NCBI GenBank assembly: GCA_902826695.1
Contig: CADEFU010000003.1
Coordinates: 186,001 to 250,000, forward strand
From: an uncultured Alphaproteobacteria bacterium
Lineage (GTDB): Bacteria; Pseudomonadota; Alphaproteobacteria; Micropepsales; Micropepsaceae
Length of the DNA stretch: 64,000 bases
Direction of reading: 5' to 3'
Below are positions 14,391 to 40,233 of this stretch, one piece after another. The notes below the pieces were generated by a model, which saw only the letters and a program-made list of their open reading frames with translations, searched no databases and was not told where the DNA came from. A program made the position numbers and the translations under genes. Numbering within the stretch: the first letter of the stretch is position 1; every line of letters starts with the position of its first letter.

Positions 14391-16190
14391 ATGGCAACCC
14401 TGACGCAAATCCTCACCACCCTCGCCGCCGACGCCTTCAAGGCGGAGGGGCTCGATCCCGCTTACGGCACGGTCACGACCTCCGACCGCCCGGACCTGGC
14501 GCAGTTTCAATGCAACGGCGCGCTCCCCGCCGCGAAAGCGCAAAAGCAAAACCCGAAGGCGCTCGCCGAAAAAATCGCAGCCCGCCTGAAAGCCGACCCG
14601 CGGCTGGCGAAGGTGGAGATCGCAGGCCCCGGCTTCATCAACATGGACCTCACCGACGAAGCGCTTGCCGCCCACATCGACAAGCTCCGTGACGACCCGC
14701 GCTGCGGCGTCCCCACGCGCGCCACCCCGCAAACCGTGATCATCGACTTCGGCGGCCCGAACATCGCCAAGACCATGCACGCGGGCCACCTGCGCTCGCT
14801 CGTCATCGGCGACGCGCTGCAGCGCCTGCACCGCTTCATGGGCGATAAGGTGATCAGCGACGTCCACTTCGGCGATTGGGGCCTGCAGATGGGCCAGCTG
14901 ATCACGGAGCTGAAACGCGAACAGCCGAACTTGCCCTACTTCGACGAGGCGAACAAAGGCCCGTACCCGAACCAATCCCCCGTCACGATGGAGGATCTGG
15001 AGCGCATCTACCCCAAGGCCAGCGCCGCCTGCAAAGCCGACCCTGAGCGCCTCGACGAAGCGCGCAAAGCGACGGCCGAGCTTCAGGCCGGCCGCCCCGG
15101 CTACCGCGCGCTGTGGGAACACTTTCGCGGCGTCTCCTTCGCAGGCGTGCGCCGCGAGTTCGACGCGCTCGACATCAGCTTCGACTGGTGGAAGGGCGAA
15201 AGCGACGTCGACAAGCTGGTCGCGCCCATGGTGGACGATCTGAAACGCCGCGGCCTGGCGGTCGAAAGCCAAGGCGCGCTCGTCATCCACATCGCGGAGG
15301 AGGGCGACAAACGCGAACTCCCCCCGCTGATCGTGCAAAAGAGCGACGGCGCGGCGCTGTACGAGACGACCGACCTCGCCACGATCGTGGACCGCGTGGC
15401 GAAGGCCGACCCCGACCTCATGCTCTACGTCGTCGGCCAACCCCAACACGACCACTTCGAAAAAGTCTTCCGCGGCGCCAGGAAAGCGGGCCTCGCCGGC
15501 AAAGCGACGCTCGAACACATCGGCTTCGGCACCGTCAACGGCCCCGACGGCAAACCCTTCCGCACAAGAGCGGGCGGCACGGTGAAACTCTTCGACCTGA
15601 TCGAACAAGCGAAACAAGAAGCGAGGAAGGCGCTGAGGGAACTGGCAATCGCGCGCGGCGAAAATCCACCGGAAGAACGCGACATGTCCCCCGAAGCTTT
15701 AGCGGAGGGGGAAGAGATCGCAAGACAAGTCGGCCTCGCCGCAATCAAATTCGCCGACCTGCAAAACCACCGCCTGACGAACTACGTCTTCGACCTAGCA
15801 AGGTTCACAAAATTCGAAGGCGAAACCGGCCCGTACCTCCAATACGCCGCCGTGCGGTGTAAGTCGCTGCAGCTGAAGGCGGTGCAGATGGGACACTGGC
15901 CGGACGCGATATCGCGCATCGAAAGTGACGCCGATCGGAATCTCGCGTTGACGCTCGACCGTTTGCCGGGCGCCATCGACCAAGCCACAGCCAAACGAGC
16001 GCCGAACGTCTTGTGTTCCTACGTATTCGAACTCGCACAAGCATTCAGCCGCTTTTGGGCGGCGCACAACATCGTCAACGAGCGTGACGAGGAACTGCGC
16101 GGCGCACGTCTCAGCCTGTGCGCACTAACCTTTACAGCGTTGACGCGATCACTGTCCCTTCTCGGCATCGAAGTTCCTGAGCGGATGTAG
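14391..16190 (+). CDS. argS: Arginyl-tRNA synthetase
   Basis: 599 residues. Class I aminoacyl-tRNA synthetase charging tRNA-Arg. The N-terminal tRNA-binding domain (1-110) is followed by the HIGH-type motif HAGHLRSLVIGD (130 onward) and by FGDWGLQMGQLI. The KMSKS loop is replaced by FRTRAGGTVKL, as in most ArgRS. The C-terminal helical anticodon domain ends LLGIEVPERM. Codon choice changes over the last 330 bases compared with the body, and a diverged copy of the final 50 codons lies directly downstream (16243-16395). The gene is intact, but its 3' end may have been replaced by recombination. Confidence 0.96.
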   Translation: MATLTQILTTLAADAFKAEGLDPAYGTVTTSDRPDLAQFQCNGALPAAKAQKQNPKALAEKIAARLKADPRLAKVEIAGPGFINMDLTDEALAAHIDKLRDDPRCGVPTRATPQTVIIDFGGPNIAKTMHAGHLRSLVIGDALQRLHRFMGDKVISDVHFGDWGLQMGQLITELKREQPNLPYFDEANKGPYPNQSPVTMEDLERIYPKASAACKADPERLDEARKATAELQAGRPGYRALWEHFRGVSFAGVRREFDALDISFDWWKGESDVDKLVAPMVDDLKRRGLAVESQGALVIHIAEEGDKRELPPLIVQKSDGAALYETTDLATIVDRVAKADPDLMLYVVGQPQHDHFEKVFRGARKAGLAGKATLEHIGFGTVNGPDGKPFRTRAGGTVKLFDLIEQAKQEARKALRELAIARGENPPEERDMSPEALAEGEEIARQVGLAAIKFADLQNHRLTNYVFDLARFTKFEGETGPYLQYAAVRCKSLQLKAVQMGHWPDAISRIESDADRNLALTLDRLPGAIDQATAKRAPNVLCSYVFELAQAFSRFWAAHNIVNERDEELRGARLSLCALTFTALTRSLSLLGIEVPERM

Positions 16191-16210
16191 ACGGACAGCC
16201 AAGCCTCCTG

Positions 16211-16233
16211 TCCTCCGCTTTAGCGAAGGAGGA
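16211..16233. repeat. Hairpin between argS stop and argS relic
   Basis: TCCTCCGCT followed by TT and AGCGAAGGAGGA forms a near-perfect stem. It lies exactly between the intact argS stop and the start of the diverged duplicate 3' end, so it may be an argS terminator or a junction element. Confidence 0.5.
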
Positions 16234-16242
16234 TCGACCTCA

Positions 16243-16395
16243 GCCCAGCGCTTCTCCAGCTTCTACGCCGCCCACCACATCCTAAGCGAAGAAAACGCCC
16301 CCCTCCGCGCCCGCCCAACCCTCTGCCACCTCGCCCTAACCCAACTCCAATCTACATTGACCATTCTCGGCATCGAGCCACCGGAGCGGATGTAG
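16243..16395 (+). pseudogene. Relic of a second argS 3' end
   Basis: Translated in frame with the TAG at 16393-16395, these 50 codons begin AQRFSSFYAAHHIL and end LTILGIEPPERM. They align without large gaps to the last 51 codons of the intact argS (AQAFSRFWAAHNIV ... LSLLGIEVPERM), about half of the residues being identical. The last 12 bases (GAGCGGATGTAG) are identical to the end of argS, and CTCGGCATCGA is shared just before. Upstream of it the homology stops at the hairpin. This is a genuine second argS tail, either the original end displaced by an incoming one or the remnant of an integration at the argS 3' end. Confidence 0.85.
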
Positions 16396-16411
16396 AATCT
16401 TGCGAGGGTCA

Positions 16412-16449: not shown

Positions 16450-18957
16450 TCACCAGACCGACGGCGGCCAGTATACGCGCTCAAGCCCGTTGCGACGGAT
16501 GCTTTCCAAAATGCCCAGCGCTTCCTCCCGCCCGATGCCTGCGTCGCAAAGTCCAACCAGCACGATCGCGTATTCATTCTCGATTCGTGTACCGAAAACA
16601 CCTGGGTTGTCGGTGTTGATCGTAGCCAGGATCTTACCCTTGTGTCGCGTCAGTAGTGGAATGATTGGAATTTCCTTCGGTTGCGTAGCGCCCGAGATAC
16701 GCCAATTTGAGGAGGGATTGAACTCGAAGAGGATGCCGCGGCTCGATAAAAGATCGACGACCTTCCCTTGCGCCCACCGGACAGCTGGGACTAGAGAATC
16801 GTAAAGCTCTGCTGGCGCGAGACGCTCGGCGCGTGCCGTGAACGTCTTCTCATCGTGCACCTCACGATCGGCGAGTCGCGCCGCGGGCGACTTTGTGTTC
16901 TCACGCCATCTCTCACCGCCTTTGCGCCACACCGGTCCCGCACGGTAGTTGCCGATGTCTTCAAGCATCATCAGGCTTGGCGGCGGTAGTGCCCCCGGAT
17001 AGAGCTCAGCAAACGTTGACCAAAGCCACTCTTCAAGCTGCACGAGTTGCGTGCCGAACTGGCTACTTCCTTCGAGCATCATCTGCGTGTAAAGCCAAAG
17101 CAGTGCGTCGAACTGCTGGCCGGCCTCCGTTACAACATGCGAGAGGCGCTCCCGGTGAAACCGCTCAACATCCACACCAGCCGCAAGGCCGTGTCCGATC
17201 GTGTCGCCTTCCCGCATCTTGAGCCCGTCAGCTGCGCGCACCATCGCATACACACCCTCCAGCGGGTGCGCGAAGTCTTCACCGGCATGGCAGGTGAGGC
17301 CGAGCGGTGGCAGGGCAACTTGGTCGGCGCGGCTCGAATCACCCATCAATTGGAGCCATCGCCCGTATGTGACGGGATCGACATCATCATACTTCAGCGC
17401 CGCCAGGGCATCTTCATCACCGCGCGCGAGGTTGATCGCGAACGCCGCGACATCGGGCGGAACGTCGCGCTCTTGACCGGCAAAATCGATGCGCGCGATG
17501 CGAGAAACAAACCGCCGGTCTTGGGTCACGGCAACCGCGCATCGAAACTCGTGTAACGCCGCCGCTTCGTCGGCAACTCTCCGTCGCAACTCCTGTACGG
17601 CTTGCGGCGTCGCCGCGCGGTTCTTCAAGTCGAGTGACCGCTTGAAATGCACCGCAAAGCGGATGTCGGCTGCTTGAGTGTGGTTGGCGAGATCGAAGTC
17701 GCGCTCAAGCGCGTCCCATGTCTTAAGCTGTTGTAGGAATGAAGAGCCTCGCGTGCCGGGCAGCGGCGCAAAACGCAGTTCCACCCGGCGCAAGGATCCA
17801 CCCTGCAACAAGTAGAGCAAGTGATCGTGCCACCGCGTTCGCACGACAGTGTGATTGACCGGAAGATTCGGAAACTCCCCCGTCCACTTCATTGTATTGA
17901 ACATCTTGCGAAACCTGTTCAAACCTGGGTTTGTGGTCACGCCCTGTGTTCGCAGCCGGATGAACCGGCTCTTTGTGTGGATGTAAACGTCGAGGGCATG
18001 CTCCAGCCAGATCGCGTTGCGCCACTTGTCGGGCTGCTCGCTCTTGAGCAATGCGTTAAGTGTCGTAAACGCGCGTACAAGCATCCTGCGCTCGCAGCGC
18101 AGGCGCTTAAGACTCCGCCAGGGATCTATTGGGTCATTCTCGGAAAGCTCGATCTTTTCGTAAAGGCGGCCAAGCATGGAGGTGGGATCAGCTATATGTT
18201 CGATGACCCAGCGCAATCGATGCCGCTCGATAGCAAGCTCAGGGCCCCGAGATTGGTCTGCTATCGACTCCATGGGCATGTTGTCGAGGTCGATCGCACC
18301 CGAAATGAGACCTTGCCACAGCGCGTGCGCATTGCGGAGTGAACCCTGATGAATGTGAAGGTCGCTGACCCCTTGCCGAGTCAGCCGCTGCAAGTCGCGG
18401 TCAGCGATCCTGGCGACGATCGGCCACTCCGTCATGCGCTCCAATGCGCGCGGCTCATACGATCGGGCGAATGTGAAGCAAAGTAGGCTGTCCGCATCCA
18501 AAAATTCCGTACAGGTTAGCCACCCGCGCAACGAGGCCAGGTCAATGACGGGTTCGTCGGTCTCGAAACGAATCTTGAGCCCGAGGCGGGCGATCAGGAC
18601 CTCAAACCAACCCATTAGCCCGTCGCTGGCGTCGTCGGCGAGCGAATGCAAAATGGTTCCAATGTCCTCACCAGCCCAGCGTCGGTCGGATTCGAGCAAC
18701 CGCTCGGCGATCAAGTTGAGGATCCTCAGCCGCTCCTTCTGATCGAAGCATTGGCCCAAGCCCCGCCACCTAGCCCCGCGCTTTCCTGCGAGCGCCGTCA
18801 GCGGATCGGCCAACGTCTCTGTTTGTGCAAGCTTTATCGCCGCTGCAATGCGCTCCTCAGAGGAAAGCACAGCCAGCGCCAATTGCCCTTGAACATCCGA
18901 CGCAGTCACGCGTTTCAGGTCACTTTGTTGTTTTTCCGGCAGATCTTTGACTGGCAA
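16450..18957 (-). CDS. rdrB: RADAR adenosine deaminase RdrB
   Basis: 835 residues from a TTG at 18957, which overlaps rdrA by 38 bases; a GTG at 18909 is an alternative. Adenosine-deaminase catalytic features are all present but spread widely: HIH at 201-203, HAGE at 557-560 (zinc His and catalytic Glu), GHG at 588-590 and NTDNPG at 781-786 (zinc Asp; the following Asp of classical ADA is Asn). The roughly 350 residues between HxH and HAGE are much longer than in metabolic ADA, as in RdrB of the RADAR system. Paired with a large P-loop ATPase, this is expected to assemble into a defence complex deaminating adenine nucleotides or RNA during phage infection. The assignment rests on motifs and gene pairing. 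Confidence 0.88.
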   Translation of the reverse strand: MPVKDLPEKQQSDLKRVTASDVQGQLALAVLSSEERIAAAIKLAQTETLADPLTALAGKRGARWRGLGQCFDQKERLRILNLIAERLLESDRRWAGEDIGTILHSLADDASDGLMGWFEVLIARLGLKIRFETDEPVIDLASLRGWLTCTEFLDADSLLCFTFARSYEPRALERMTEWPIVARIADRDLQRLTRQGVSDLHIHQGSLRNAHALWQGLISGAIDLDNMPMESIADQSRGPELAIERHRLRWVIEHIADPTSMLGRLYEKIELSENDPIDPWRSLKRLRCERRMLVRAFTTLNALLKSEQPDKWRNAIWLEHALDVYIHTKSRFIRLRTQGVTTNPGLNRFRKMFNTMKWTGEFPNLPVNHTVVRTRWHDHLLYLLQGGSLRRVELRFAPLPGTRGSSFLQQLKTWDALERDFDLANHTQAADIRFAVHFKRSLDLKNRAATPQAVQELRRRVADEAAALHEFRCAVAVTQDRRFVSRIARIDFAGQERDVPPDVAAFAINLARGDEDALAALKYDDVDPVTYGRWLQLMGDSSRADQVALPPLGLTCHAGEDFAHPLEGVYAMVRAADGLKMREGDTIGHGLAAGVDVERFHRERLSHVVTEAGQQFDALLWLYTQMMLEGSSQFGTQLVQLEEWLWSTFAELYPGALPPPSLMMLEDIGNYRAGPVWRKGGERWRENTKSPAARLADREVHDEKTFTARAERLAPAELYDSLVPAVRWAQGKVVDLLSSRGILFEFNPSSNWRISGATQPKEIPIIPLLTRHKGKILATINTDNPGVFGTRIENEYAIVLVGLCDAGIGREEALGILESIRRNGLERVYWPPSVW

Positions 18958-21900
18958 GGCGCTTATGGTGCGCGCCTGCTTTACCTTTGAGAAGGGATAG
19001 AAACTCAGCAGTTCGGATCAGCTTTTCTTCGAAGTCCGCGAACACGCTTTTCAGTTCGCGCCCGGCGCCTTCGCGCGAGTCGAGTTTGCTTACCCTGTCT
19101 TTGAACATTTTACCCCAACCCGGGGGAGCTGGTTCCCCGAGTCGCGCAAGAAAGCCTTGTGCCCCTTCCACTCCCATGGACGTGAACGAAATATCGGGAA
19201 TCATAGAGAACGACACACCGTGCAGCAGCGAAGGGCGTGGTTCCTCTCGTGGCTCTCGCGTCACCTGCGTGATTTCAAGTCGTATCAGCGTAAGTTCCAA
19301 ACTGGCGCGGTATCTGAGATAGTAGCGTGAAATCCAGCGAACAAACTCTTGCCAATTGTCAACGACGTTTGTCAGTTCACGTTTTTCTATCGCAATCCGG
19401 CGCGCCTTGTGGCAAACGGCCCCGTACTCGATGTGCACCAATGCTGGAAGGCACGGCATGAGCGCCCAAAGATAAAGGAACAGGGATTTTGAATATCGAG
19501 CCAAGTCGACATCCTGGTGGCGGCTTGGATCAATTTGCAACAAGGCCCACTTCGTAGGTGTTTTCGCCAAGGACTGGCAGCCTTTGACTGAACTCGGAAA
19601 CGCCGCGTCGAAGACGGAGTCGTCCTCCGGCCATGCTCCGTTCACATCTGGTCCAAGACCTGCAGCGTCAGCAACAAACAAACGCAAGGGCACCTTCTTC
19701 CAGACGTCCCCCGGCTGAACCTCTGTCGGGTTGCTGATCAGCTCTCGTACTACCTCTTCAAGTTTCCCGGGGAGAGGGTCCGCGGTAAGTCGTTCGAACG
19801 CTTCACGTGAGTAACCGTTTTGTTGAATCCAATGGCGCACTGCGTTGAAACTTGGGATGGTGTAGCGATTGCCCTCCCAGAACGTCGCCGTACGCTCAAA
19901 CGGCCATTTCTCACCAGCAGCCTCCCGATCTTGGTCCACCCGTTTCGGCGGCAGTTGGTTTAGCAAGATTCGCGAAGCGTGCCAGGCACGCCGCATGTCG
20001 TTGATCAACGCTTGGTAGGACTCGAAACTATCAGCCAGAACGTCATCTATTTCGCGCTGGGCGCCAGACACTGGTTCTTTAAGATGTAGCGCCTTTGTCA
20101 CAAACTTGTTCCAGCCCTCAACTGTAGTCTTTGCCAAACTGCTTGCTGCAGTCCGCCCAAGTGCCGTTTCGGCAAAGTGATTGTAGTAGTCATAGTGGCG
20201 ACGCAGCGAGTCGATTTCTGCACACTTTTCTGCAAACTCCCTACGCGTTTCGATATCGGCGAGCAGCTCACCATTCTCTACTTTGGTGGCCGGTGGAGTG
20301 AACCGCCCTATTTCGAGGCTACCAAGAGGTAGAACGACTTCCTTCAGGTACGTTGCAAGGAGTTCCTCGCTCGGCCCCGGTTTGACCTCGACTTTGCCTT
20401 TCTCAATGAGATCTGCTTGAGCCTCATGCGCGGTAGCGGCCCGGCCCTCTTTCTTTGCCGCAGTTGTCGCTTCGCCGATGCCCGCCATTGGCTGCGTCCA
20501 CAAGCGGTCCACGTCAAAGAAAAATAGCTCGGGCCATCGATAGATCAGATTTGTATCCCAATCCTTCGAGAAGCGAAGAGGCTCCCCTTGGGACTCGATC
20601 CGAAGCCCAGGCTCGAAAGCAATATCGGGAAGACAATCCAAATCGTGGAAGTAGATACAGTTCGCCGGTAACACTGAATGCTGAATCTGTTTCGCAACGC
20701 CAAACAGTGTCTGCGGTTGCATTTTCGGAAAGAACGGCGTCATACCGATCATGTTCTGTCCTGAAGGCCGCGGCAGCAATCCGATCGGGACGTTGGCGTC
20801 GGGGTCTTCCCGCAAGGGCAGGGCCAGCCCCAGATCCAACCTGAATCCGATGAAGGAATATCCGTATGTACCACGCTGAAGTGTGCGGTCGCCGATGCGG
20901 AAGTATCGCTCACCTCGCCAACAACTGTCGACGCTCTGTTGCTGCAACCATGCCCCGACATTCGTATCCGCGTCAGAGAAGCGATCGATCAAGAGATTGT
21001 TCTCTGGCGCCTCGAATAATATCACGGCCAACCGCTTCGGTCGGCGATGGGGCAAATGGCGGGACACCAAAACCGAGTTTGGCGTCGAACCTGTAAGACC
21101 GACCAGCGCACGCAATTGCCGGATCGACCGTGGCCGTAACTGCTCACCGTACCGGTGCCGGAACAGCCACCACGCAAGAAAGCTCTCCAACTTGTTCTTA
21201 TCGTCCTCCGATGCCAACTCGCGCAGGCGGAGGCGACGGTTTTGAAACGCTGCCACCTTGATGCGAAGGAAGTCGTCACGAAAGTCGGAAAGTCGCTGCC
21301 GACAATATTGATCAAAAGAGAGGCCGCCGACGAGGGTTTCAAAATCATTGAAGAACTCTTTGTCCCGCGCCCATTCCTTGTCTTTGTCACCCTTTTGGCC
21401 ATTGGAGGGGTCGCCAATCTCACTGAAGTCCGCCAACTCATCGACTGGCTCAAACGAAAGAAAAAATCGCAACGGCCGCGGCAGGATTTTTTCGAGATAC
21501 TCTTCAATTTGATGCCGAACGAGGCGACGCCACGTGGTTGGTGTGCCGCCGGTCGGGTCCGCCGAAACCTCGACAGGATCCTTCAGATCGCTCAACTGAC
21601 GCCAGGTCAAGCTTTGCCGCATCGAGCGCAAGTGACCGGCGACGATGGTCACGATGCGCGGGTGGTCCAGAAAAATGCGGATCGTATGCAGAATATCGGC
21701 GGTGGTTTGCGGCGACACATCGGTGTCATCGACAAAGGTCACCAAGAGCTGTGCTTTGAAGTAGTCCAAGTACTCGTTGACGTACGAGCGCCACATTGCA
21801 ACGCGGTTATAGGACTCGGCGCCCGTGCTTCCGAGCTTGGTCAAATAGTTCTCGAGGTTGTAGCTATACGCTCTGATGGCCTCGTCGCGCTCGCTCTTCG

Positions 21901-22675
21901 CGAGGTACCAACCTTTCGCGACTTGATCGTGCAGTTTCTGTACTAGCGCTTCGCCCTGCGTCACCCGCTCGCTATCCGTGTGCGAAGCGCTCTTGCATCG
22001 CATGATCTCGCCCTTCAATTTCGTGATCATGAGGGCAAAGAGAGCCTCCATGACCGATTGGGTTTGTTCAAGATCGGAAGGCACCAGAAGTGGCAAGACG
22101 CATGCCGTGTGTCGCTTTTCGACCCGGGGTTCATGTCCGCGATGAGGTTCCCTGAAGAGACGTTCGACGAGTCCTTTAGTATCTTCGTACGGCCAACTAT
22201 CGAATCTTGTCTTCTCACTCTTGCTTTCTGGGTTGGCTTCTTTAGCGGCATTCAGGTCTTTACGCTTCTTCTCGACTTCCTCGCTAAAGTAAGTGCGCAG
22301 GCCCTTCAGATAATTGGTAACGAAGTTCCATCGACCATCGGCCCACTTGTCCGCATCCCCGAGGCATTTCAAGAACTCTCTGATTGTGAGCAGCATCGAC
22401 GTCTTGCCGGAGCCGCGCGCGCCGTCGATGAAGAACACATGGCGTGGTCTCCGAAATTGTTGATTGTCTACGTATTCGTGGGTCGTCCGCGCCACCACGC
22501 CGAGCTGGGCTTCGCCGTCGGCAATTTCATATACGCGTAACAAGATGTCTCTTAGAACGCGATCCTGCCGCATTGTAAGTTTGTTGGTAGGCAGTACTGA
22601 GGCGCCAGTCCAGTCGATGTCGCCGAGCGGCCCGTGATCGATTGTTGTCAACGAATCCGTCTTGGTAATACCCAT
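18920..22675 (-). CDS. rdrA: RADAR ATPase RdrA
   Basis: 1251 residues. The ATG at 22675 has a GAGGAA ribosome site 6-7 bases upstream, so the longer frame starting at 22753 is not used. The Walker A motif is GARGSGKT at 85-92; Walker B is FVDDTDVSP near 314-322, followed by a sensor-like strand RIVTIVAGHL. The rest is a long, mainly helical C-terminal region with no recognised domain. In RADAR, RdrA is the ring-forming ATPase that works with the RdrB deaminase to restrict phage. The 3' end overlaps rdrB, so the two are co-translated. The protein looks longer than typical RdrA as I recall the family. Codon use is less GC-biased than in neighbouring genes, consistent with acquisition. Confidence 0.87.
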   Translation of the reverse strand: MGITKTDSLTTIDHGPLGDIDWTGASVLPTNKLTMRQDRVLRDILLRVYEIADGEAQLGVVARTTHEYVDNQQFRRPRHVFFIDGARGSGKTSMLLTIREFLKCLGDADKWADGRWNFVTNYLKGLRTYFSEEVEKKRKDLNAAKEANPESKSEKTRFDSWPYEDTKGLVERLFREPHRGHEPRVEKRHTACVLPLLVPSDLEQTQSVMEALFALMITKLKGEIMRCKSASHTDSERVTQGEALVQKLHDQVAKGWYLAKSERDEAIRAYSYNLENYLTKLGSTGAESYNRVAMWRSYVNEYLDYFKAQLLVTFVDDTDVSPQTTADILHTIRIFLDHPRIVTIVAGHLRSMRQSLTWRQLSDLKDPVEVSADPTGGTPTTWRRLVRHQIEEYLEKILPRPLRFFLSFEPVDELADFSEIGDPSNGQKGDKDKEWARDKEFFNDFETLVGGLSFDQYCRQRLSDFRDDFLRIKVAAFQNRRLRLRELASEDDKNKLESFLAWWLFRHRYGEQLRPRSIRQLRALVGLTGSTPNSVLVSRHLPHRRPKRLAVILFEAPENNLLIDRFSDADTNVGAWLQQQSVDSCWRGERYFRIGDRTLQRGTYGYSFIGFRLDLGLALPLREDPDANVPIGLLPRPSGQNMIGMTPFFPKMQPQTLFGVAKQIQHSVLPANCIYFHDLDCLPDIAFEPGLRIESQGEPLRFSKDWDTNLIYRWPELFFFDVDRLWTQPMAGIGEATTAAKKEGRAATAHEAQADLIEKGKVEVKPGPSEELLATYLKEVVLPLGSLEIGRFTPPATKVENGELLADIETRREFAEKCAEIDSLRRHYDYYNHFAETALGRTAASSLAKTTVEGWNKFVTKALHLKEPVSGAQREIDDVLADSFESYQALINDMRRAWHASRILLNQLPPKRVDQDREAAGEKWPFERTATFWEGNRYTIPSFNAVRHWIQQNGYSREAFERLTADPLPGKLEEVVRELISNPTEVQPGDVWKKVPLRLFVADAAGLGPDVNGAWPEDDSVFDAAFPSSVKGCQSLAKTPTKWALLQIDPSRHQDVDLARYSKSLFLYLWALMPCLPALVHIEYGAVCHKARRIAIEKRELTNVVDNWQEFVRWISRYYLRYRASLELTLIRLEITQVTREPREEPRPSLLHGVSFSMIPDISFTSMGVEGAQGFLARLGEPAPPGWGKMFKDRVSKLDSREGAGRELKSVFADFEEKLIRTAEFLSLLKGKAGAHHKRLASQRSAGKTTK

Positions 22676-23008
22676 CGCATTCCTCAATTGACATTTTACA
22701 GGGAACACCCACGCTAGTTGATACGCTATGTTGGCTATACTCAAGAAATTCATTCGCCCAAAGGCAGAACGAGCATTGATGACTTCTCGCGTTGAGTGTC
22801 AGGGAAGAGTTTTGCGCTGCTACATGCTGCTCTAACTTGGAGAACGATAGCTGGCGCACTTGGGAGGCTGTAAGAAGCTGAGAGAACCTTCCGCGTGGAT
22901 GGGCACGCCCGGCCTTAGTAGCGCCGATGCTTAATCCGGCCGATTGGTCAGGCGGTTGACGCTTGATTGTCGATCAAGAGGGCACAAGCATTCTGCGCTC
23001 TTTGACAT
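22676..23008. other. Intergenic region upstream of rdrA
   Basis: About 330 bases without a convincing gene, unusually AT-rich near rdrA. On the minus strand TTGAGT and TATCAA are spaced 15 bases apart some 50 bases upstream of the rdrA start, a weak promoter candidate. A perfect hairpin CTTGAT-TGTCG-ATCAAG lies at 22962-22978, just past the end of the membrane gene, without a U-run. The region may give rdrA its own promoter rather than strict co-transcription with the membrane gene. Confidence 0.4.
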
Positions 23009-23689
23009 TCAGCGGAACGGGCTCTGCGGCGCGGGAAGGTACTGTTGCGCGACAGCCCAAGTCCAATCGATCGCCAAAAAGACCAAAAACACGAAGAGGA
23101 CGCGGACATTTGCACCAGGGTGCCAAAACAAAAGCAAAGCGACCGCCGCTATTATTGCGGCGGCGACTAGCAAATCGCCCGCCTCAGCAACATTGGGCAG
23201 TTCGACCTCGCGCAAGCCTCCGATGCCGATGTTGGACGCAGTCAGAATGTAAACAACCAAAACAGCAAATGCGGCGACGTGCACAGGATAATGCAGCGCA
23301 GTGCGTCTCCAACCGAACTTGCCCGGTGCGTTCACAAAGAATGAGGTTAGACCAAATCGGCGAAAAGAGAACGCGACGACGATCAAGAGTTGAACGGCCA
23401 CTGGGATCAATTGCTCGAACGCTGGCGACAAAGGGAGTGCGATCCACGCGAGCGCCACGACAATGGTCGACTTGATGATCGCCATGACGGGCAACCAATA
23501 GTCCACAACGGTGGCGGCAAGGCCACTAAACGATAGCGCTCTCAGCACAATCGCAAAGCCACTGAGCACCAGAGGTACAGCACCAATTGCAAGAACCGCT
23601 TCCTCGCGGATAAACGCTACCCAGTCTCTCCCAAGGTCGAGAGGCGTCCGCCTCTGCACGCTTTCGTCCGTTACCTGTTTCGTGCTCAC
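23009..23689 (-). CDS. Multi-pass membrane protein next to RADAR
   Basis: 226 residues from a GTG at 23689 with a G-rich ribosome site (GGGGGGAAC). About six membrane helices are visible, for example AVLAIGAVPLVLSGFAIVL, a central pair around residues 65-110 and the C-terminal VLFVFLVFLAIDWTWAV. The N-terminal 30 residues are polar and likely cytosolic. No domain recognised. RADAR loci are known sometimes to carry a third, membrane-protein gene (SLATT or Csx27-type). This one occupies that position and orientation, so an accessory role is likely, but it lies 333 bases from rdrA and homology to either type is not evident by eye. Confidence 0.7.
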   Translation of the reverse strand: MSTKQVTDESVQRRTPLDLGRDWVAFIREEAVLAIGAVPLVLSGFAIVLRALSFSGLAATVVDYWLPVMAIIKSTIVVALAWIALPLSPAFEQLIPVAVQLLIVVAFSFRRFGLTSFFVNAPGKFGWRRTALHYPVHVAAFAVLVVYILTASNIGIGGLREVELPNVAEAGDLLVAAAIIAAVALLLFWHPGANVRVLFVFLVFLAIDWTWAVAQQYLPAPQSPFR

Positions 23690-23741: not shown

Positions 23742-23855
23742 TCAGGAACCGCTGCCCTTCGTTAAGCCGATCAACAAGACCACACGAAGATGAGTGTACT
23801 GGTCCTCAATGCGCGTGCCAAACACGTTTCGGTTGTCTGTATTCGGTGTGGCTCG
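23742..23855 (-). pseudogene. Relic of a second rdrB-type C-terminus
   Basis: Reading the minus strand to the TGA at 23742-23744, the frame contains NTDNRNVFGTRIEDQY then LRVVLLIGL. Intact rdrB has NTDNPGVFGTRIENEY then AIVLVGL at its C-terminus. Twelve of the 16 residues in the first block are identical, and the block includes the zinc-binding Asp. No other part of a deaminase is visible upstream, so this is a fragment left from another rdrB-like gene or a duplication scar. It lies beyond the far end of the RADAR operon, in the same orientation as rdrB. Confidence 0.8.
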
Positions 23856-24319
23856 GGCAGCATCGCGTTCACCGAGCGCAGCGTCCTGCGGCCTTAGGGG
23901 CGATCACCTGAAGACGCGAGGCTAGCGATGACAACCGTCGAGGGAAATCGGGATGCCAAGCTCTCTGACGTGTCGCAGATAAGCGGTCATGCCACTTCGA
24001 CAGGCTTAGAGACGAAGTGTGGGACGAGATGAGATATGGGGACGCGTTACCCACTCCCTCAAGTGAACGCATGTCTTGGCGTTTGGTCTTGGGCCCGAGT
24101 CTTGGCGTTCGGTCTTGCAGATCGGTCTTGGCACTTTGTCTTGGGCTCGCGCTCGGGCGAGACGCGAATTTCGCCTACCAGGCGAGCCCGCTCCGCCCTG
24201 CGACACTTTAGTTCTCTTTTTGTTCTTGAATCTTTCGGCGTTTTCGGCGATATTCGGCGCTGATCTTCCCTATTGGTGGAAATGCGTCTGGCGCCGGTTC
24301 CGGGCGACCGGCCGCAAGC
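23856..24319. other. Non-coding right edge of the RADAR island
   Basis: About 460 bases with no supported gene. It contains the 13-bp tandem repeat described separately and, at 24236-24263, several TTTCGGCG / ATTCGGCG repeats close together. No tRNA, integrase or recognisable attachment site is seen. Confidence 0.5.
24074..24151. repeat. 13-bp tandem repeat, six units
   Basis: Six consecutive 13-base units begin TCTTGG (TCTTGC in the fourth): at 24074, 24087, 24100, 24113, 24126 and 24139. Units 1 and 3 differ by one base (TCTTGGCGTTTGG, TCTTGGCGTTCGG). The first six bases are conserved and the last seven vary. The period is not a multiple of three, so this is not a coding repeat. It has the look of iterons or protein-binding sites. 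Confidence 0.8.
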
Positions 24320-25153
24320 TCACGGCGCCGGCCGCGCCTGCGCCAGCCGCATCATGCGAACCGCAACCTCGGTCCCCGCGTTCTGATTTTGCCCGGTGAC
24401 CAGCCGGCCGTCCTCGACCACATGGTTGGCGAAGATATCGCGAAACGCGGTCGCGGCCGTGAAGACGGCGCCGGCGGCGCGCAGTTCGCGCTCGGGGTGC
24501 ATCGGCGTGATCGTGATGCCCAACTCTTCGACTTGCTTGTTCGTCACCGCCGTCAAGCGGCGGCCCTTGACCAGCGGCGCGCCGCTTTCGTCGGTCGCCT
24601 TCAACAGGCCAAGCGGGCCGTGGCAAACGCCGCCAACCACGCGGCCCGCTTTCCACGCCGCGGAAATCTTCTGGCCCAACACCTCGGATTGCCCAAGGTC
24701 GTACGCCGCGCCCCAACCGCCGGCGAGATAGACGATGTCATAGGCCGCGAAGTCCACGTCGTCGATCTTCAGCGATCGGCTGACCTTCTGGCGGAACGCC
24801 GCGTCGCCGTGAAGCCGCTTGTCGGCGCGCGATTCGACGAACCAAAGGAACGACATCGGATCGATCGGAATCTCGCCGCCGGCGATGCTGGCGACGTCAA
24901 CCTGCATGCCGCCATCCAAAAACACATAGTAAGGCGCCGTCATCTCGGAGGCGAACACACCCGTGCGCGCGGTGCCGGGCGAAAGCTCGCCGTGGCTGGT
25001 GGTGACGATCAACGCCTTGCCGCCCGGCATTTCAACGCGCGGCCCCGCATACTCGGGATGCAGCCCAAGGCCTGAGAACAACGGCGGCAACCCAAACCAC
25101 GCCGCCACCGCCAACGCCGCAACGAACGCAATCAGAAATCCCAAAACTCTCAT
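24320..25153 (-). CDS. DJ-1/PfpI family protein with N-terminal membrane anchor
   Basis: 277 residues from the ATG at 25153 (AAGGGA about 8 bases upstream). A single hydrophobic helix (residues 3-25) is followed by a DJ-1/PfpI domain: KALIVTTSHG, DIVYLAGGWGAAYDL, and the nucleophile elbow GGVCHGPLGLL with its conserved Cys, then LTAVTNKQVEELG. Family members act as glyoxalases, chaperone-like deglycases or cysteine hydrolases. The His next to the Cys supports a catalytic role. Membrane anchoring or export of a PfpI domain is less usual. Isolated gene. Confidence 0.85.
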   Translation of the reverse strand: MRVLGFLIAFVAALAVAAWFGLPPLFSGLGLHPEYAGPRVEMPGGKALIVTTSHGELSPGTARTGVFASEMTAPYYVFLDGGMQVDVASIAGGEIPIDPMSFLWFVESRADKRLHGDAAFRQKVSRSLKIDDVDFAAYDIVYLAGGWGAAYDLGQSEVLGQKISAAWKAGRVVGGVCHGPLGLLKATDESGAPLVKGRRLTAVTNKQVEELGITITPMHPERELRAAGAVFTAATAFRDIFANHVVEDGRLVTGQNQNAGTEVAVRMMRLAQARPAP

Positions 25154-25392
25154 TGGCAACATCCCTTTAGAGCCCCGCCGATGCGGGCCGGACACCACAA
25201 AACCACCCCCGGCCCGCCACGGCTTTGATGCAGGTCAGCTTTGCGTGTGCTGCGAAGATGGACGGATGAGCGATCGGACAAGACGCTCCGCTCGCCCGGC
25301 CATGACGAGTTTTTTTGAGGCGGCAGAGGCCTCGCACGATCGCGAGGCTAGCCGTATTCTACCGGCCACGCCACGGCCGGGAGGACGAACCC

Positions 25393-25977
25393 ATGCCTTT
25401 CTATCACGACGGCCATCGCGCCCTTCAGGCGCGCTTCGGCTCGACCCCGCTGGCCGAACGGCTGGAGCAGGTGACCCACCGCACGCGCCTCACCGGCGAC
25501 GACAAGGCGTTCGTCGAAAGCATGAGCTTCTTCTTTCTCGCAACTGCGGACGCGCAAGGCCGCCCCGACTGCTCCTACAAAGGCGGCGCGCCGGGCTTCG
25601 TGCGGGTGCTCGCCCCGGATCTCATCGTGTTCCCCGATTACGACGGCAACGGCATGTTCCGAAGCCTCGGCAATATCGCGGTCAACGCGGGCGTCGGCCT
25701 GCTGTTCGTCAAAATGGGCGAGGCGCCGAAACGCCTGCGCATCAACGGCCGCGCCACGGTCAGCTTCGACGACCCGCTGCTTGAGAGCGTGCCCGGCGCC
25801 CAAGCGCTCGTGCGCGTCACACCGGAACACGTCTTCCCGAACTGCCCGCGTTACATCCACGATCTGGAACACGCCAAGCCCTCGCCCTACACACCGGCGG
25901 CGGGCGAAACCCCGCGCGAACCCGCCTGGAAATCCTTCGACGTCTTCAAAGACGTGGTCCCGCCGCGAAAGCGCTGA
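25393..25977 (+). CDS. Pyridoxamine-phosphate-oxidase-like flavin-binding protein
   Basis: 194 residues from the ATG at 25393 (GGAGG upstream). The fold is recognised from SFFFLATADAQGRPDCSYKGG, LIVFPDYDGNGMFRSLGNI and the long strand GVGLLFVKMGEAPKRLRINGRATV, typical of the split-barrel FMN-binding family of PNPOx-like general stress proteins. These bind FMN, F420 or haem and reduce or oxidise small molecules; the actual substrate cannot be told. The C-terminus has CPRYIHDLE, common in this subgroup. Confidence 0.85.
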   Translation: MPFYHDGHRALQARFGSTPLAERLEQVTHRTRLTGDDKAFVESMSFFFLATADAQGRPDCSYKGGAPGFVRVLAPDLIVFPDYDGNGMFRSLGNIAVNAGVGLLFVKMGEAPKRLRINGRATVSFDDPLLESVPGAQALVRVTPEHVFPNCPRYIHDLEHAKPSPYTPAAGETPREPAWKSFDVFKDVVPPRKR

Positions 25978-26033
25978 CGGCATCAAGATGGCGCCGTGCT
26001 AAGGTGCAGGCGCAAATGGGGCAGGCTCACGTA

Positions 26034-26618
26034 ATGACGAGACATACGACTCAGCTATTCGCGGCCGCCGTTCTTCTGATCTTGACGGCAAGTGTCGTGT
26101 GGGCCGCGCCACCACTGCCACCACCGCCACCACCGCCGCCGCCACACTACGGTCCGAATTCGCCGCCGCCGCAGCCGGCCTCTGCCTTTCAGGCCTGCCG
26201 CGATCGCAGCACCCTGCGCTTCGAGCGGTCTTTCGCGTTTCAAATTCGGCCATGCACGATCGTGGCGACGACGAAGGGGCGCAAGCTCGAACTCTCCTCG
26301 GTCAGTGGTCCGGCGACCTTCACGGACGCGAAGGGCAAACGGCACTACCCGACCAAAGTGATCTTCAGGAGTTTCGTGCCCCTCATACCGCCCACCTACA
26401 CCCGTTTCGACATGTTCAACATCAAGCAGACCGGTCGAACGCTGAGCGTGCGCCTGCCGCACCGGCTGCCCTCGGTGCTCGACCCTTACGTCGTTTGGCT
26501 GCCACGAAGCATCTGCCGCGCCGACACGTGGCTGGTCAGCATGGCCGTCTCCGACGGCACCGAAACGAAACCCTTCGGCATCATCAACAGCATGTGCGGC
26601 CCCAACGCCCGCCGGTGA
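26034..26618 (+). CDS. Exported protein with polyproline linker
   Basis: 194 residues; the ATG at 26034 opens a signal peptide (MTRHTTQLFAAAVLLILTASVVWA). Right after cleavage comes a run of ten prolines encoded by repeated CCACCG/CCGCCG triplets, then a further PPPQP. The mature domain (about 50-194) contains two or three Cys (FQACRDRS, CTIVATT, SICRADTW) and strands such as TRFDMFNIKQTGRTLSVRL. Function unknown. The proline run may span the peptidoglycan or act as a flexible tether. Confidence 0.72.
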   Translation: MTRHTTQLFAAAVLLILTASVVWAAPPLPPPPPPPPPHYGPNSPPPQPASAFQACRDRSTLRFERSFAFQIRPCTIVATTKGRKLELSSVSGPATFTDAKGKRHYPTKVIFRSFVPLIPPTYTRFDMFNIKQTGRTLSVRLPHRLPSVLDPYVVWLPRSICRADTWLVSMAVSDGTETKPFGIINSMCGPNARR

Positions 26619-26747
26619 CACAACCGGCCCGACCCTTGTGCCACATGTGCCACTTCACGGAAGAGCTCACCCGCCCAAATCCGGGCGCAGTCTCGTACGA
26701 TGCGACGCGACACGCGGCGGCCGACCTGATGTAGAATCGGCCAGATC

Positions 26748-27752
26748 ATGATCAACCGCGACCCGGAAACGAACTTCGAAGCGCTGTGGCAGACGTTCCG
26801 CGACCGCTACCCCTTCTTCGCGCTCAGAAACGTCGACTGGCAAGAGCAGTACGAGACCTTCCGGCCACGCGTCACGCGCGCGACCGGCGACGCGGAGCTC
26901 TTCGATATCCTCTGCCAAATGCTCGAGGCGCTGAACGACGGGCACGTCGAACTCAAAGCCAGAATAGGCGAGGGCGGGACAACGCGATCCTTCACCGCCG
27001 AAAAGCAGCCCCGCTTCTATCGCGAATTCACGGACCGCGAGATCAAAGACCTCTTCAAAACGACCGAGAAAACGCTGGCCGCCCACGGCTTCGCCCGCCC
27101 GGAAGAGACAGAGGCTTGGCTGCTCCGCTACGGCCGCTCGCCAACCATCGGCTACCTGCGCATTCTCGAGCTCGAGGGTGTCGGCAAACAAAAGCTGACC
27201 GCCGCCTTGGACAAGATCGCCCAGGACTTCGCGGACCTCGAAGGCTTCATCATCGACATTCGCGACTGCCCCGGCGGCGATGATCACGTCGCGATCGCGA
27301 TCATCAACCGCTTCTGCGACGCCAAGCGAACCGCCTTCCACCGCAAGACGAAGATCGGCCCGGGCGAAGACGACTTCACACCTTTGAAGACCTGGCACAT
27401 CGAGCCTGAGGGCGACACGCAGTTCACCGGGCCGATCGTCGTCCTCAGCTGCGATTCCGTGTTCAGCGGCGGCGAGGCGTTCGCGCTGGCGATCAAGGAA
27501 CTGCCGCATGTGACGCTGATCGGCGAGCACACGAACGGCATCTTCTCCTACACGCTCGACAAAAAGCTGCCGAACGGCTGGGCGTATTGCCTGTCCTACC
27601 AAGTGTACCTGTCGGCGGACATGGTCTGCTACGAGGGCAAAGGCGTGCCGGTCGACATCGAGCTGCTGAACACGAAAGCCGATATCGAAGCCGGCGTCGA
27701 TCCGCTGATCATCCGCGCGCTCGATGTGCTGCGGTCGCCCGTTGTCTCGTGA
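26748..27752 (+). CDS. Cytosolic S41-family peptidase
   Basis: 334 residues without signal peptide. LNDGHVEL near residue 65 is the usual S41 N-terminal motif; IIDIRDCPGGDDHVAIAI forms the glycine loop; and VFSGGEAFALAIKELP holds the catalytic Ser-Gly-Gly-Glu region, followed by GEHTNGIFSYTLDKKLPNG. No PDZ domain is visible. This is the tricorn/C-terminal-processing fold in a compact version. It is better preserved than the S41 relative at 7573-9012. Substrate unknown. Its 3' end overlaps the convergent phosphopantetheinyl transferase by 44 bases. Confidence 0.86.
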   Translation: MINRDPETNFEALWQTFRDRYPFFALRNVDWQEQYETFRPRVTRATGDAELFDILCQMLEALNDGHVELKARIGEGGTTRSFTAEKQPRFYREFTDREIKDLFKTTEKTLAAHGFARPEETEAWLLRYGRSPTIGYLRILELEGVGKQKLTAALDKIAQDFADLEGFIIDIRDCPGGDDHVAIAIINRFCDAKRTAFHRKTKIGPGEDDFTPLKTWHIEPEGDTQFTGPIVVLSCDSVFSGGEAFALAIKELPHVTLIGEHTNGIFSYTLDKKLPNGWAYCLSYQVYLSADMVCYEGKGVPVDIELLNTKADIEAGVDPLIIRALDVLRSPVVS

Positions 27753-28440
27753 CGAGAGCCGCAGAGGTGTCGGCCTCCTCGATCACGTAAGCGCAAAAGC
27801 GCTGCGGCCCGCCCGGCGCCTGAACGACACGCAGCGTCGGTGTCAGCTCGAACTCGAACGCGTCAAGACCGAACGGCAATCCCTCGCCGATGGATTTCAA
27901 CGCCGCTTCCTTGAGCGTCCAAAACTGGAAGAAGGCCCGCGCATCCGCCGCTTCGATGGCCTTGGCCTCGGCTTCGCAGAAGTAGCGTCGCGCAAGCTCG
28001 CCTGTCGCCGTCGCCCGCGTTCGATCCTCGATATCGACACCGATGTCATGGGTCGAAGACCACGCCCCCAGAAAGCCGAACCGGCAGGAGGAAAAGCTGA
28101 ACGAGGTCCCCGGCACTTGCGGAAGATACGGGCGGCCTTTCTCACTCTCAGCAAAGCCGATCTGCGCCAGCGGCGCCGAAGACCCAAGCGCCAGCGCGCC
28201 GCAATAGCGGCGAAAGGCACGCTGCTGCTTGAACCGCGCCCGACGTTCCTCGGCCAAGAAGCGCTCCGCCTTCGCCAACTCGCCGGCTGACAGTACCGAC
28301 GCGCAACGCCGCGCCACCTCCGCGTCGTGCGAAACCGGCGCGAACACCACGCAAGCCGCATCACGCGCCGGTGCCGGCGTCCAATCCCGCGCGTTGGCCG
28401 CAAACCAGTCTTGAACCCAGGCGCTATCGTCTCGCGTCAT
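27709..28440 (-). CDS. Sfp-type 4'-phosphopantetheinyl transferase
   Basis: 243 residues from the ATG at 28440. Transfers phosphopantetheine from CoA to the Ser of carrier domains. The Mg/CoA motif is GVDIED (134-139) and the second signature is FWTLKEAALKSIGEG (173 onward). Length and the N-terminal pseudo-repeat fit the Sfp/EntD type rather than AcpS. The start overlaps the end of the NRPS gene by 17 bases, so it is co-translated and very likely activates that enzyme's T domain (Ser620). It is the last gene of the diaminopropionate operon. Confidence 0.93.
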   Translation of the reverse strand: MTRDDSAWVQDWFAANARDWTPAPARDAACVVFAPVSHDAEVARRCASVLSAGELAKAERFLAEERRARFKQQRAFRRYCGALALGSSAPLAQIGFAESEKGRPYLPQVPGTSFSFSSCRFGFLGAWSSTHDIGVDIEDRTRATATGELARRYFCEAEAKAIEAADARAFFQFWTLKEAALKSIGEGLPFGLDAFEFELTPTLRVVQAPGGPQRFCAYVIEEADTSAALVTRQRATAAHRARG

Positions 28441-31400
28441 CGACGGGCTCCGCCGGGCTCCCCTCATAGACGGCCCTGGAAAGGCTCATCTCCTTCAGCA
28501 CCATGGCGAGCGGCAGCAGCGTGGTATCCCGCGCGATCGTCGCCCCGCCCATCACGGTCGCGCCGACCGCAACCACGCACCCGTCATGGATATGGGTTCG
28601 CTTCACCTTCAGCGTCATATCCTCAAACGAGTGAAGCTGCAGGAAGCCGTCCACGACGCAATCGCGCCCAAAGCTGACGGCGTTCCAGTCGGAGCACTGC
28701 ATCGGCTCGGTCAGGATCGTCCGCGCGCCGATCCCGCATCCCATCCACCGCAAGATCGGGTTCGCGAGCACGGTCCCGGCGAAGAAACTGATTGGCCCCC
28801 GGCACCAGACGAAAAAGCAATCCTGTGCGAAGAAATAGGCAAAGTGCCGCCACGACCAAAACGGCGTCGTATGATCGGCCCCCCAGTCGCTTCCGACCAG
28901 CGCCTTCTTCACCGCGACGCTCAACGAGATCAACCCAGCCTCCGTAACCAGGAAAGCGGCGAACACGCCCGCAATCGGATCGAAGCCCCAGCGCGTCAGA
29001 CAAATGAAGAGAACCGCGAAGATAAGCCCTTCCGTCGCGCGCAGGATGCCGATGCTGAAGAGGTCGTTCAGGAAAACACGGGTCAGAAACAGGGCAAAGC
29101 CCGGCCGCCTGTGCGTTTCGTTCTCCGCCTCGAACGACGCGCTCGCAAACCGCACTGGCGGATTTCCCGCCGCCGTAATCGGCGCACCGAGCCGCGACCG
29201 CATCTGACGGCGAAACAGGATGTCGTTGCCCGGCGTCGAAACGCCCAGAAGGAAATTGGACGGAAGATTGCCGGACTCCGCCACACAGTTGTTACCGGCG
29301 AAGAAGTTCCGCGGCATGTCGAGCGGGCGCAGGGTCATATGCTCGGCCCCGACGTCGAGCATGTTCGTCAAGCAACCATTCGACCAGAAGATCTGAGAGT
29401 CCGCGCTCGCGGCTTCGGGCACAAGGTTGAACATGAGGTCGCATTCCGAGCCGCCCACGCGCGGGAAATGCATGCCCGCAAGCGCCCGCAAGTACTGCCC
29501 CGTGACAGTCCAGGTCCACAGCGCCTGAATGCCGTTCATCTTCGACACACGGTACAGCAGAAGCGCACCCTTGAGCCCGCGCGAAGGGATGAGCCCCGGC
29601 GACGCGGCCGTCCAGCGAATGAAAAGACAGCCGAGCAAAGACACCACCACGATGGTGAGCCAGTTGGTGATGAACGCGTAGAGCACCAGGTGCCAGACGA
29701 TCTCGGTGAGCGGCGTCGTCGCAAAGTAATCGGCGGGAATGCCGCTGCCACCGGCGACGTTGCCGCCAAGCGCCGCCTCGCCGGCCGGTATCAGGCCGCG
29801 GGCGAACCAGAAGATCGCGGCCGTGGGTACGACGGTGAGAAGGAACGACACGGCGATCTGCATCAGGATGTTGAGCGTCTCAAGCATCCAGATCGGCTGA
29901 GTATACCGGCACGCGTTCGCGGTCCGCCTCAACACCGTGGTTCGGCCGGTCAGACGGGCCGGCGCGCCCTCCCACATCTCGTGAGAGCCCGTGTCGCTGA
30001 GGATGGGCGTGAACGGCGTGATCCAGGTGCCGCGCCCCACGGTCACACTGCTCGAGACGGCCGCCCGCATACCGATCTTGCATCCGCTCTCAAGCCGAAT
30101 GGGGCCCACATGCAGATGGTGCCCCGACCACACCGCCGTTCGGACGTAGGCGCCGGTCTGGATGGCGACATCATCCTCGATCGTGAGGAGGTCGAGCGGA
30201 CCGGCGAGATAAGCATCGCTTGCGCACTGAAGGTTCCGCCCGACGCGCGCGCCCAGTTGACGCAACACGAACGCCATCAGCGGCGCGCTGCGATACATCG
30301 CGCCAAGAGAGAGAAGCACCATGCTCTCAATCCGCCCAATGCACCAAATCCGCAGATGCATGCGGCTCCACTTGGGATACACGCCCGGCGTCACGTTGTT
30401 CCGGGTGAAGTCGCCGCCCAAAAGAACGCGAGCGATCATGGCCATGAGGAGGAGCGCGAACGGCGTCACAAGGCCGAGCAGGTAAAGTGCGAAGCCGACG
30501 ACCACAAACGCCGACAGGCTTGCGGTCGCAAAAAACGTCCCGACATCGACGTAGCTGAAGACGGCGAAAGCGAGCAGAAGGGCAGGGGCGACCGACAGCG
30601 TCGCAAACAGAACCTGCAACGTGGTGAAGTAACCGACGGAGAGAACCTCCGCCGCCGCCTCATCGCGCCCGGCGCCGTTCACATCCGCTTGCCTGGCCCT
30701 CGCCGGCGCTGGGTCGGCAAGCTGAGCCCGCCGCGGCTGGCTCGCCACCTTGCGCGCCGTGTTGCAGTCGCTGAGCAACGCCCGAACCGACACCGCCCAT
30801 CCGGCGGCCTGCAGTCGTTGCGCCAGACGCGCGATCAGAATGGAATGTCCGCCGGCCTCAGTAAATCCATCGTCCAACCCAAGCGGCGTCTCGAACACCT
30901 CCCTGCAGATGCTCAGCACTTCCTCGCATTCTGGGTTCGACTCTGCGTTCCCATCCGTCGCGACGACGCGAACTTGCGCGTCGCGCACGCGTTCCGCGTC
31001 GGCCCCCAAGAGTTGAACGAGATTCGGCAATCGCTTCCGATCGATCTTCCCCGACACCGGACTCATGACGAACTTCTCGACAAGGAAGATGCTTGTCGGA
31101 ACCGACGGCTCCGGAAGCTGTGTCGCAAGGATCGCCGTCACCCGGGCCGCCCACGCCGCCGGGGCGGGTGCAACGACGGAAACATCGCCTTTGGCGATGG
31201 AAGGCGCCGCGACGAAGGCGACCAGGGCCTCGTTCTGATAGTCGAGCACCGCAGCTTCGATCTCGCCGAACTGCGTCTGAAGGATGTCCTCGACGGCCTG
31301 CGTCTCGACGCGATGCCCGCGCACTTTCAGCTGGGCATCGATCCGGCCCAGGAACTCCACGCGCTGCGCCCGAATGTCGATTCGACACCTGTCCCCGGTG

Positions 31401-32701: not shown

Positions 32702-32737
32702 AGCATCACCTCACTTGCGGGCGGAGCTTATCGCCAC

Positions 32738-33808: not shown

Positions 33809-33908
33809 GTCGTGTCGTCTCCTCGGGCACGTCGGTCGAGCCGATACGCGTCCCCTGCGTGCTTTGGGTGGTCGAATTTCTGATCTGTAAGCCGCCCTTG
33901 CGCGGCCG

Positions 33909-34934: not shown

Positions 34935-34946
34935 GTGATCGTTCCC

Positions 34947-35915: not shown

Positions 35916-35987
35916 GACGCAATCTCTTCAAGTCGAGATTCTAAAGCACTGTCACCGGCGAATGTCGCGCGAGACGCAGCGACGTAT

Positions 35988-36119
35988 CCCCGGGCCGAAG
36001 CAGCGTGACAAACCGGGGCCGAAGCATGCTTAATGCCCAGCCACTCATTTGCACCCGTCCGCCAAGGTGAGTTTCAACATTTCGAAATGAATACGCGATG
36101 AACGCGCGCACGCGTTCAC
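35988..36119. promoter_or_regulatory. Direct repeats and palindromes upstream of the sbnA operon
   Basis: CGGGCCGAAGCA (35991-36002) recurs as CGGGGCCGAAGCA (36014-36026). Further out are a perfect 12-base palindrome CATTTCGAAATG (36079-36090) and a perfect inverted repeat TGAACGCG-CGCA-CGCGTTCA (36100-36119). No gene covers this stretch. These are candidates for operators of the downstream operon or a terminator of the gene ending at 36206. Confidence 0.45.
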
Positions 36120-36205
36120 CGCCGACACGCAAGGGCCGAGACCGTGCTGTGATCGAACGCACCAATTTGCAGTCGATCCCGTCCCCTCAAACCTGCCGCT
36201 GCTTT

Positions 36206-36541
36206 CTACTCCGGACACTTGTCATCGAGTGCATCGAGCGCCGCGCTCAACCGCTTACCGTCAGCGGAGTCTTCGTCGGTCGCTTCATACGTGTCCCAGG
36301 CCGCCTCGAAATCCGGCCCCAGTTGGTTAATGTAGCCGTCGATCTGCGCTTCGGCTGCGGGGTTCTCGCTATCGCCCATAGCCTCCTCGACATCGGCCAA
36401 CTCGCAGTACGTGTTCAACTTGCCGGAGTCGTTTCCGACCGCTGTGAACACACGCAGAGCGTTATCGACGTCAGGGTTGGCAGCCGATGCCGTGACTGCT
36501 GCAACGCAGATGGCAGCACACGCGAGAAGCGAACGCATCAT
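36206..36541 (-). CDS. Small exported acidic protein
   Basis: 111 residues. AGGAGG sits a few bases before the double ATG at 36541. A signal peptide (MMRSLLACAAICVAAVTASA) precedes an acidic mature part of about 90 residues with two Cys (TYCELADV and the terminal DDKCPE), likely disulfide-bonded. It is rich in Asp/Glu and helical. Family not recognised. It could be a periplasmic binding or buffer protein. Confidence 0.75.
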   Translation of the reverse strand: MMRSLLACAAICVAAVTASAANPDVDNALRVFTAVGNDSGKLNTYCELADVEEAMGDSENPAAEAQIDGYINQLGPDFEAAWDTYEATDEDSADGKRLSAALDALDDKCPE

Positions 36542-37490: not shown

Positions 37491-37509
37491 CCCAATCAGC
37501 TCAACGCGA

Positions 37510-39084: not shown

Positions 39085-40233
39085 ATGGCCGAACCGGCCC
39101 AAACCGATCTGAAACGAACCCCGCTCTTCGCGCTCAACGCGGAACTCGGCGGAAAGATGGTGCCGTTCGCCGGCTACGAAATGCCGGTGCAGTTCCCGGC
39201 CGGCATTTTGAAAGAACACCTGCACACGCGCGCCGCCGCCGGCCTCTTCGACGTCTCGCATATGGGCCAGGCGTGGCTGCACCTCGAAGGCAAGGGCACC
39301 CACGACGATATCGCGGCGCTGCTCGAAACACTCACGCCCGGCGACATCAAAGCGCTCAAGCCCGGCCAGATCCGCTACACGCTGCTCTTGAACGACGAAG
39401 GCGGCATCCGCGACGACTTCATGGTCAGCCGCCCGCTTAGCGCTGAGAAGGCCGGCACTCTGTTCCTCGTCGTCAACGCCGCAACCAAGGACGCCGACTT
39501 CGCGCACATCGCGGCCAAGCTGAAGGGCAAAGCGAAACTCGAACGCCTCGAAGACCGCGCGCTCATCGCGCTTCAGGGCCCGAAGGCCGCCGCCGTTCTG
39601 GAACGCATCGTCCCGGGCGTTGCCGCCATGACATTCATGACGATCGCGACCTTCACCTGGGAACGCGCGGAGCTCTTCGTCTCCCGCTCCGGCTACACCG
39701 GCGAGGACGGCTACGAAATCTCTGTGCCGGGTGCGATCGCGACCGCCTTCGCCCGCGTGCTGCTGGCGCAAGCGGAAGTCGCACCCATCGGCCTCGGCGC
39801 GCGCGACAGCCTGCGCCTCGAAGCGGGCCTCTGCCTCTACGGCCACGACATCGATGAGCAAACGACGCCTGTCGAAGCAAACCTGACCTGGGCCATCGGC
39901 AAGCGCCGTAAGCTGGAAAAAGGCTTCCCCGGCGCCGACAAGATCATGGACCAGCTGTTCAACGGCGCGAAACGCGTGCGTGTCGGTATTAAACCCGAAG
40001 GCCGCGCTCCGGCCCGCGAAGGCGCCGAGATTGTCGACGCGAACGGCGCTCCCGCCGGTCGCATCACCTCCGGCGGCTTCGGCCCCTCGGTGAACGGTCC
40101 GATCGCCATGGGCTATGTCCGCGCAGATCTTGCGAACGATGGGACCGCCTTAAGCCTCATTGTCCGCGGCCAAAAACTCGCCGCACGCGTCGTACCGATG
40201 CCCTTCGTTCAAAAACGCTTCCACAAACCTTGA
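39085..40233 (+). CDS. gcvT: Glycine cleavage system T protein (aminomethyltransferase)
   Basis: 382 residues. Transfers the methylene group from the aminomethyl-lipoyl H protein to tetrahydrofolate, releasing ammonia. N-terminal [26 protein letters not shown] and DVSHMGQ are diagnostic; [13 protein letters not shown] and [16 protein letters not shown] carry folate and catalytic residues (the Asp in DSLRLE region). First gene of gcvT-H-PA-PB, under a tandem glycine riboswitch; ribosome site GAGAGAG upstream. Confidence 0.98.

Follow-up and report, generated by a model that had tools for sequence, protein, structure and literature searches.

The window analysed here (the whole stretch of 64,000 nucleotides) carries between argS and gcvT an operon-like row of three minus-strand genes, gene X followed by the genes of an RdrA-like ATPase and an RdrB-like adenosine deaminase. 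A short relic of an RdrB-type gene lies just upstream of X, and a second 3' end of argS lies next to argS itself. The coordinates of all features are collected in Table 1.

Table 1. Features of the argS-gcvT region, with positions numbered from the first letter of the window.
Feature	Coordinates	Strand	Remarks
argS	14391..16190	plus	Left border of the variable site
Second, apparently older, argS 3'-end remnant	16235..16396	plus	AQRFSSFYAAHHILSEE...PPERM; common to two congeners
RdrB-like adenosine deaminase	16450..18957	minus	835 aa, apparently intact; HxH 201/203, HAGED 557, GHG 588, NTDN block 781
RdrA-like P-loop ATPase	18920..22753	minus	1277 aa, KAP-type NTPase, apparently intact; Walker A GARGSGKT at 111
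Gene X	23009..23689	minus	Hydrophobic 226-aa protein, probably membrane; between relic and rdrA; without family match
RdrB-type relic	23763..23855	minus	Extent of homology, about 30 codons of deaminase core; frame closed by a stop just 3'
Dispersed repeat copy (genomes of this genus)	24073..24297		Outer side of the relic
gcvT	39085..40233	plus	Right border of the variable site, near argS in relatives

The rdrA-like and rdrB-like ORFs overlap. As in RADAR, a gene of an ATPase with a Walker A motif and a gene of an adenosine deaminase are adjacent. The RdrB-like protein has the motifs HxH (within DLHIH at 199), HAGE and GHG in this order. The histidine tetrad and the glutamate of RADAR, given for E. 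coli RdrB as H152, H154, H498, E501 and H530 (PMC9994260), all have counterparts in it, with the 32-residue H-H spacing and the H-to-E spacing of the E. coli protein. PADLOC matches were obtained for RdrA (1.5e-8) as well as for RdrB (6.3e-19). On the other hand, the NCBIfam equivalog cut-offs were far from being reached (97.9 of 800 bits for RdrB and 41.7 of 600 for RdrA), and we therefore use the name RADAR-like for the operon. The length of the RdrA-like protein and the unmatched gene X upstream are further differences from RADAR. The identity of the RdrB-like protein to other RdrBs was mostly about 20-30% over the aligned parts. RADAR is further characterised by heptamer/dodecamer assembly and by ATP-to-ITP conversion in infected cells. 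The surviving operon looks intact, with the deaminase and Walker A motifs kept, and by analogy with RADAR (PMC9994260) its predicted ATPase and deaminase should turn adenine nucleotides into inosine nucleotides, ATP into ITP, during infection.

The first-pass annotation had placed at 23742-23855 a relic of a second RdrB C-terminus, in which a block close to the active-site block of rdrB is followed by a similar hydrophobic strand and a premature end. Minus-strand positions 23852-23763 translate as ATPNTDNRNVFGTRIEDQYTHLRVVLLIGL. The relic peptide of this interval, ATPNTDNRNVFGTRIEDQY-thlr-VVLLIGL (or, with an extra R in front, [R]ATPNTDNRNVFGTRIEDQY-thlr-VVLLIGL over 23763..23855), pairs with ATINTDNPGVFGTRIENEY----AIVLVGL of the RdrB-like protein. 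We found the 12 of 16 identities to NTDNPGVFGTRIENEY as described, the hydrophobic stretch aligned past a four-codon insertion, and the stop came after TKGSGS. The interval proved right as to the relic itself, but its left end was about 20 bases generous, as the homology ends near 23763. No homology was detectable beyond about 23855 on the upstream side or beyond about 23763 on the downstream side, a frameshift-tolerant alignment gave no extension on either side, and RdrB similarity sought in all frames of the 3' tail stayed at the background level. What remains is similar to the C-terminal deaminase block of RdrB, and its roughly 30 codons fall short of a full-length gene with the zinc-binding histidine tetrad and the catalytic glutamate; it is a remnant rather than a working member of RdrB.

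A promoter-like match, in terms of consensus alone, was observed inside the relic at 23821-23793 of the minus strand (9 of 12 positions; 0.1 such matches expected). It is directed at gene X, and the relic DNA could now be serving the operon as a promoter.

The similarity between the relic and RdrB far exceeded chance expectation. The local alignment score was 79, while 300 shuffled spacers gave a mean of 39.5 and a maximum of 57, and among 175 real 630-nt tiles taken from the rest of the window the highest score was 58. When the entire 4.3-Mb genome was searched in six frames, the relic matched, besides itself, only the block of rdrB that is co-linear with it (E=3.2e-4); for the further genomes searched, the best matches of the relic peptide had E-values of at least 0.22. 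A_deaminase was the only Pfam family matched at E<=10, and this weak match fell where it was expected in the profile (positions 266-292; E=0.039; 13.5 bits, under the curated cut-off of 27). We also ranked 1453 frames of the window with HMMs made from other RdrBs, the RdrB-like protein of the window being left out. With the HMM of three RdrBs of the same subfamily, the relic frame had E=4.1e-5 and was second, directly after rdrB, with the next frame at 4.4. With the HMM of a wider set it was second again, at E=0.012 compared to 4.9 for the next frame.

The pattern of nucleotide divergence is informative about the origin of the relic. Relic and rdrB differ at 16 of 48 nucleotides, of which 11 are at third codon positions, and eight codons differ synonymously; the third-position excess had P=0.004 against uniform decay in a test resting on these 48 nucleotides. 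Since the changes are mostly at third positions, the two sequences appear to have diverged as working genes before the relic broke, and the relic would therefore be what is left of a separate rdrB-type gene and not a decayed recent duplicate. This bears directly on the reading of the relic as a decayed local tandem duplicate of the neighbouring rdrB 3' end. The same strand, the same locus and the best match to the neighbouring rdrB are all in line with such a duplication. Neutral decay, however, spreads changes evenly and gives neither the third-position concentration nor the synonymous changes. Moreover, the same block is present in an RdrB from Thiotrichales that is only about 30% identical overall to the RdrB-like protein of the window, so that similarity within the block does not imply a recent common origin. 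We consider a tandem duplicate unlikely.

The Thiotrichales protein came from a set of 51 RdrB-relative loci of named genomes, found with an alignment query; an earlier scan of genome contigs with a single protein had found none. No RdrB relatives were found in phage records or in viral contigs. The Thiotrichales RdrB and the RdrB-like protein of the window have NTDNPGVFGTRIENEY in common, letter for letter. The relic shares 14 of 20 residues with each of these two and at most 10 of 20 with every other RdrB compared, which places all three in the same subfamily. The earlier assignment of the relic to a second RdrB-type gene is supported. At the positions where the subfamily has P-G the relic has R-N, a replacement that would fit relaxed constraint.

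The fragment is short, and both Pfam and PADLOC tie the C-termini of RdrB to other adenosine deaminases; one could thus think of a different deaminase with a similar active-site block, such as a stand-alone or CARF-type adenosine deaminase, as the source of the relic. The motif VFGTRIE, which the relic shares with the RdrB subfamily of the window, and the much lower residue counts for the other RdrBs speak against such a source, and no other A_deaminase was found in this genome; we regard it as improbable. A coincidental match in a non-coding spacer, conceivable for a short block picked by eye from 64 kb, is hardly credible, with the shuffles, Pfam, the genome search and the profiles, including the test without the window's own rdrB, all far outside the null.

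The interval between the two border genes varies greatly in the family. Among the family genomes in which both genes could be read, the distance between argS and gcvT was about 0.35-2 kb in most (about 1 kb in congeners G001 and G003) and 6.5 kb in genome G020, compared to 23 kb in the window genome and about 24 kb in congener G002. In congener G007 the two genes are on different contigs. Comparison of the locus in related genomes, proposed as a check in the first-pass annotation, did reveal other cargo. In G007, argS is immediately followed by a three-gene STAS-like/PRTase/PNP operon (L027:1491-5907) with a PADLOC PNP effector match at 8e-25, a candidate conflict system. The site holds a NUDIX gene and two ORFs without matches in G002, MazE/MazF-like (MazEF) pairs in G003 and G035, and a TIR-TPR protein (L137:5580-8210) with TIR_2 and ThsB_TIR matches in G020. 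PAS_5 and further non-defence genes occupy the site in other genomes.

Within the window, positions 24320-38640 are mainly metabolic (DJ-1/PfpI, PNPOx, S41 peptidase, PPTase, NRPS-like, OCD/mu-crystallin, PALP and cupin genes). This cluster, inserted beside the RADAR-like operon, includes an SbnA/SbnB-like pair. Conserved borders with cargo differing among relatives are features of variable defence-gene sites; differences from such sites are the largely metabolic cargo of the window, with its NRPS/diaminopropionate-type cluster, and the lack of an integrase among the genes searched, which included part of the small ORFs. These observations support the view that the argS-gcvT interval is a variable site whose cargo is frequently, though not exclusively, defence-like. 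Defence genes would have come and gone there, given the relic next to an apparently intact operon and the other cargo that relatives carry at the site. The earlier designation as a defence hot spot thus holds as to the different cargo in relatives, but most of the 23 kb is metabolic.

The argS remnant, also reported in the first-pass annotation, is real. In the window genome, in G007 and in G002, a second argS 3' end follows argS after about 45-60 nt, with a hairpin in between that is conserved at this locus in all three (16191-16396 region in the window). The possibility that the hairpin was a dispersed repeat was rejected, since a scan of the genus allowing up to one mismatch matched only this locus, in G007 and G002. 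The family-typical FYAAHHILSE is kept in the remnant and lost from the working argS of both the window genome and G007, which suggests that the remnant is the older end and that the working genes were altered. Only the window genome, of these three, has RADAR-like genes there. Because the other two carry other cargo, the remnant predates the RADAR-like operon and is independent of it; the idea that argS and rdrB relics tell one story of RADAR modules is not supported. No further argS remnant was found near the relic, near gcvT or elsewhere in the window. As both argS copies are on the argS side, they are not an att pair flanking the operon; of the features of an integrative element at argS, neither attachment repeats at both ends nor, among the genes searched, an integrase was seen.

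We think it quite probable (about 0.75) that the relic preserves the core of the 3' portion of a second rdrB-type gene, which belonged to an older RADAR-like module lost by deletion and decay from the cargo site that argS and gcvT enclose. The earlier module would have directly adjoined the present X-rdrA-rdrB operon on its upstream side, in the same orientation, with its rdrB, a distinct diverged gene of the same subfamily, ending just upstream of X; deletion and decay would later have removed this gene. The homology, the subfamily, the divergence pattern and the varying occupancy of the site are observed; that a whole module and not a gene fragment was once present, as well as the order of events, we infer. 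Remnants of a second rdrA or of a second X were not found.

Serial modules have a precedent in Oceanirhabdus sp. W0125-5 (L089; 1-11644). The order there is rdrB, an opposite-strand gene, an rdrA-like gene, whose product PADLOC does not recognise, and rdrB. As proposed for the window, two rdrB genes follow one another on the same strand, and the second comes directly after the rdrA-like gene. Both copies are open in Oceanirhabdus, whereas one is a fragment in the window. Two intact modules at the argS-gcvT site were not found in any relative, and the 'repeated' in the proposal of repeated insertion and loss of RADAR-like modules rests on a single fossil.

An intact gene in place of the relic would run to 23676, where X starts (23689), and in Aureibacter rdrB abuts or overlaps its SLATT gene. 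Going by this geometry, X may have been part of the lost module. A more extensive reading, with the interval as a defence-turnover site in which a series of RADAR-like modules, all from one divergent RdrB subfamily, built up and eroded, and with X as a part of the lost rdrB unit, is put forward tentatively and is rather doubtful.

RADAR is rare, being present in 270 of about 38,000 genomes (PMC9994260). The relic, lying beside a divergent RADAR-like operon, is well supported as a gene fossil; as the fossil of a second, diverged RdrB next to a living operon, it would be direct evidence of RADAR turnover at one place. For the Micropepsaceae, the argS-gcvT interval is a place to seek new defence genes.
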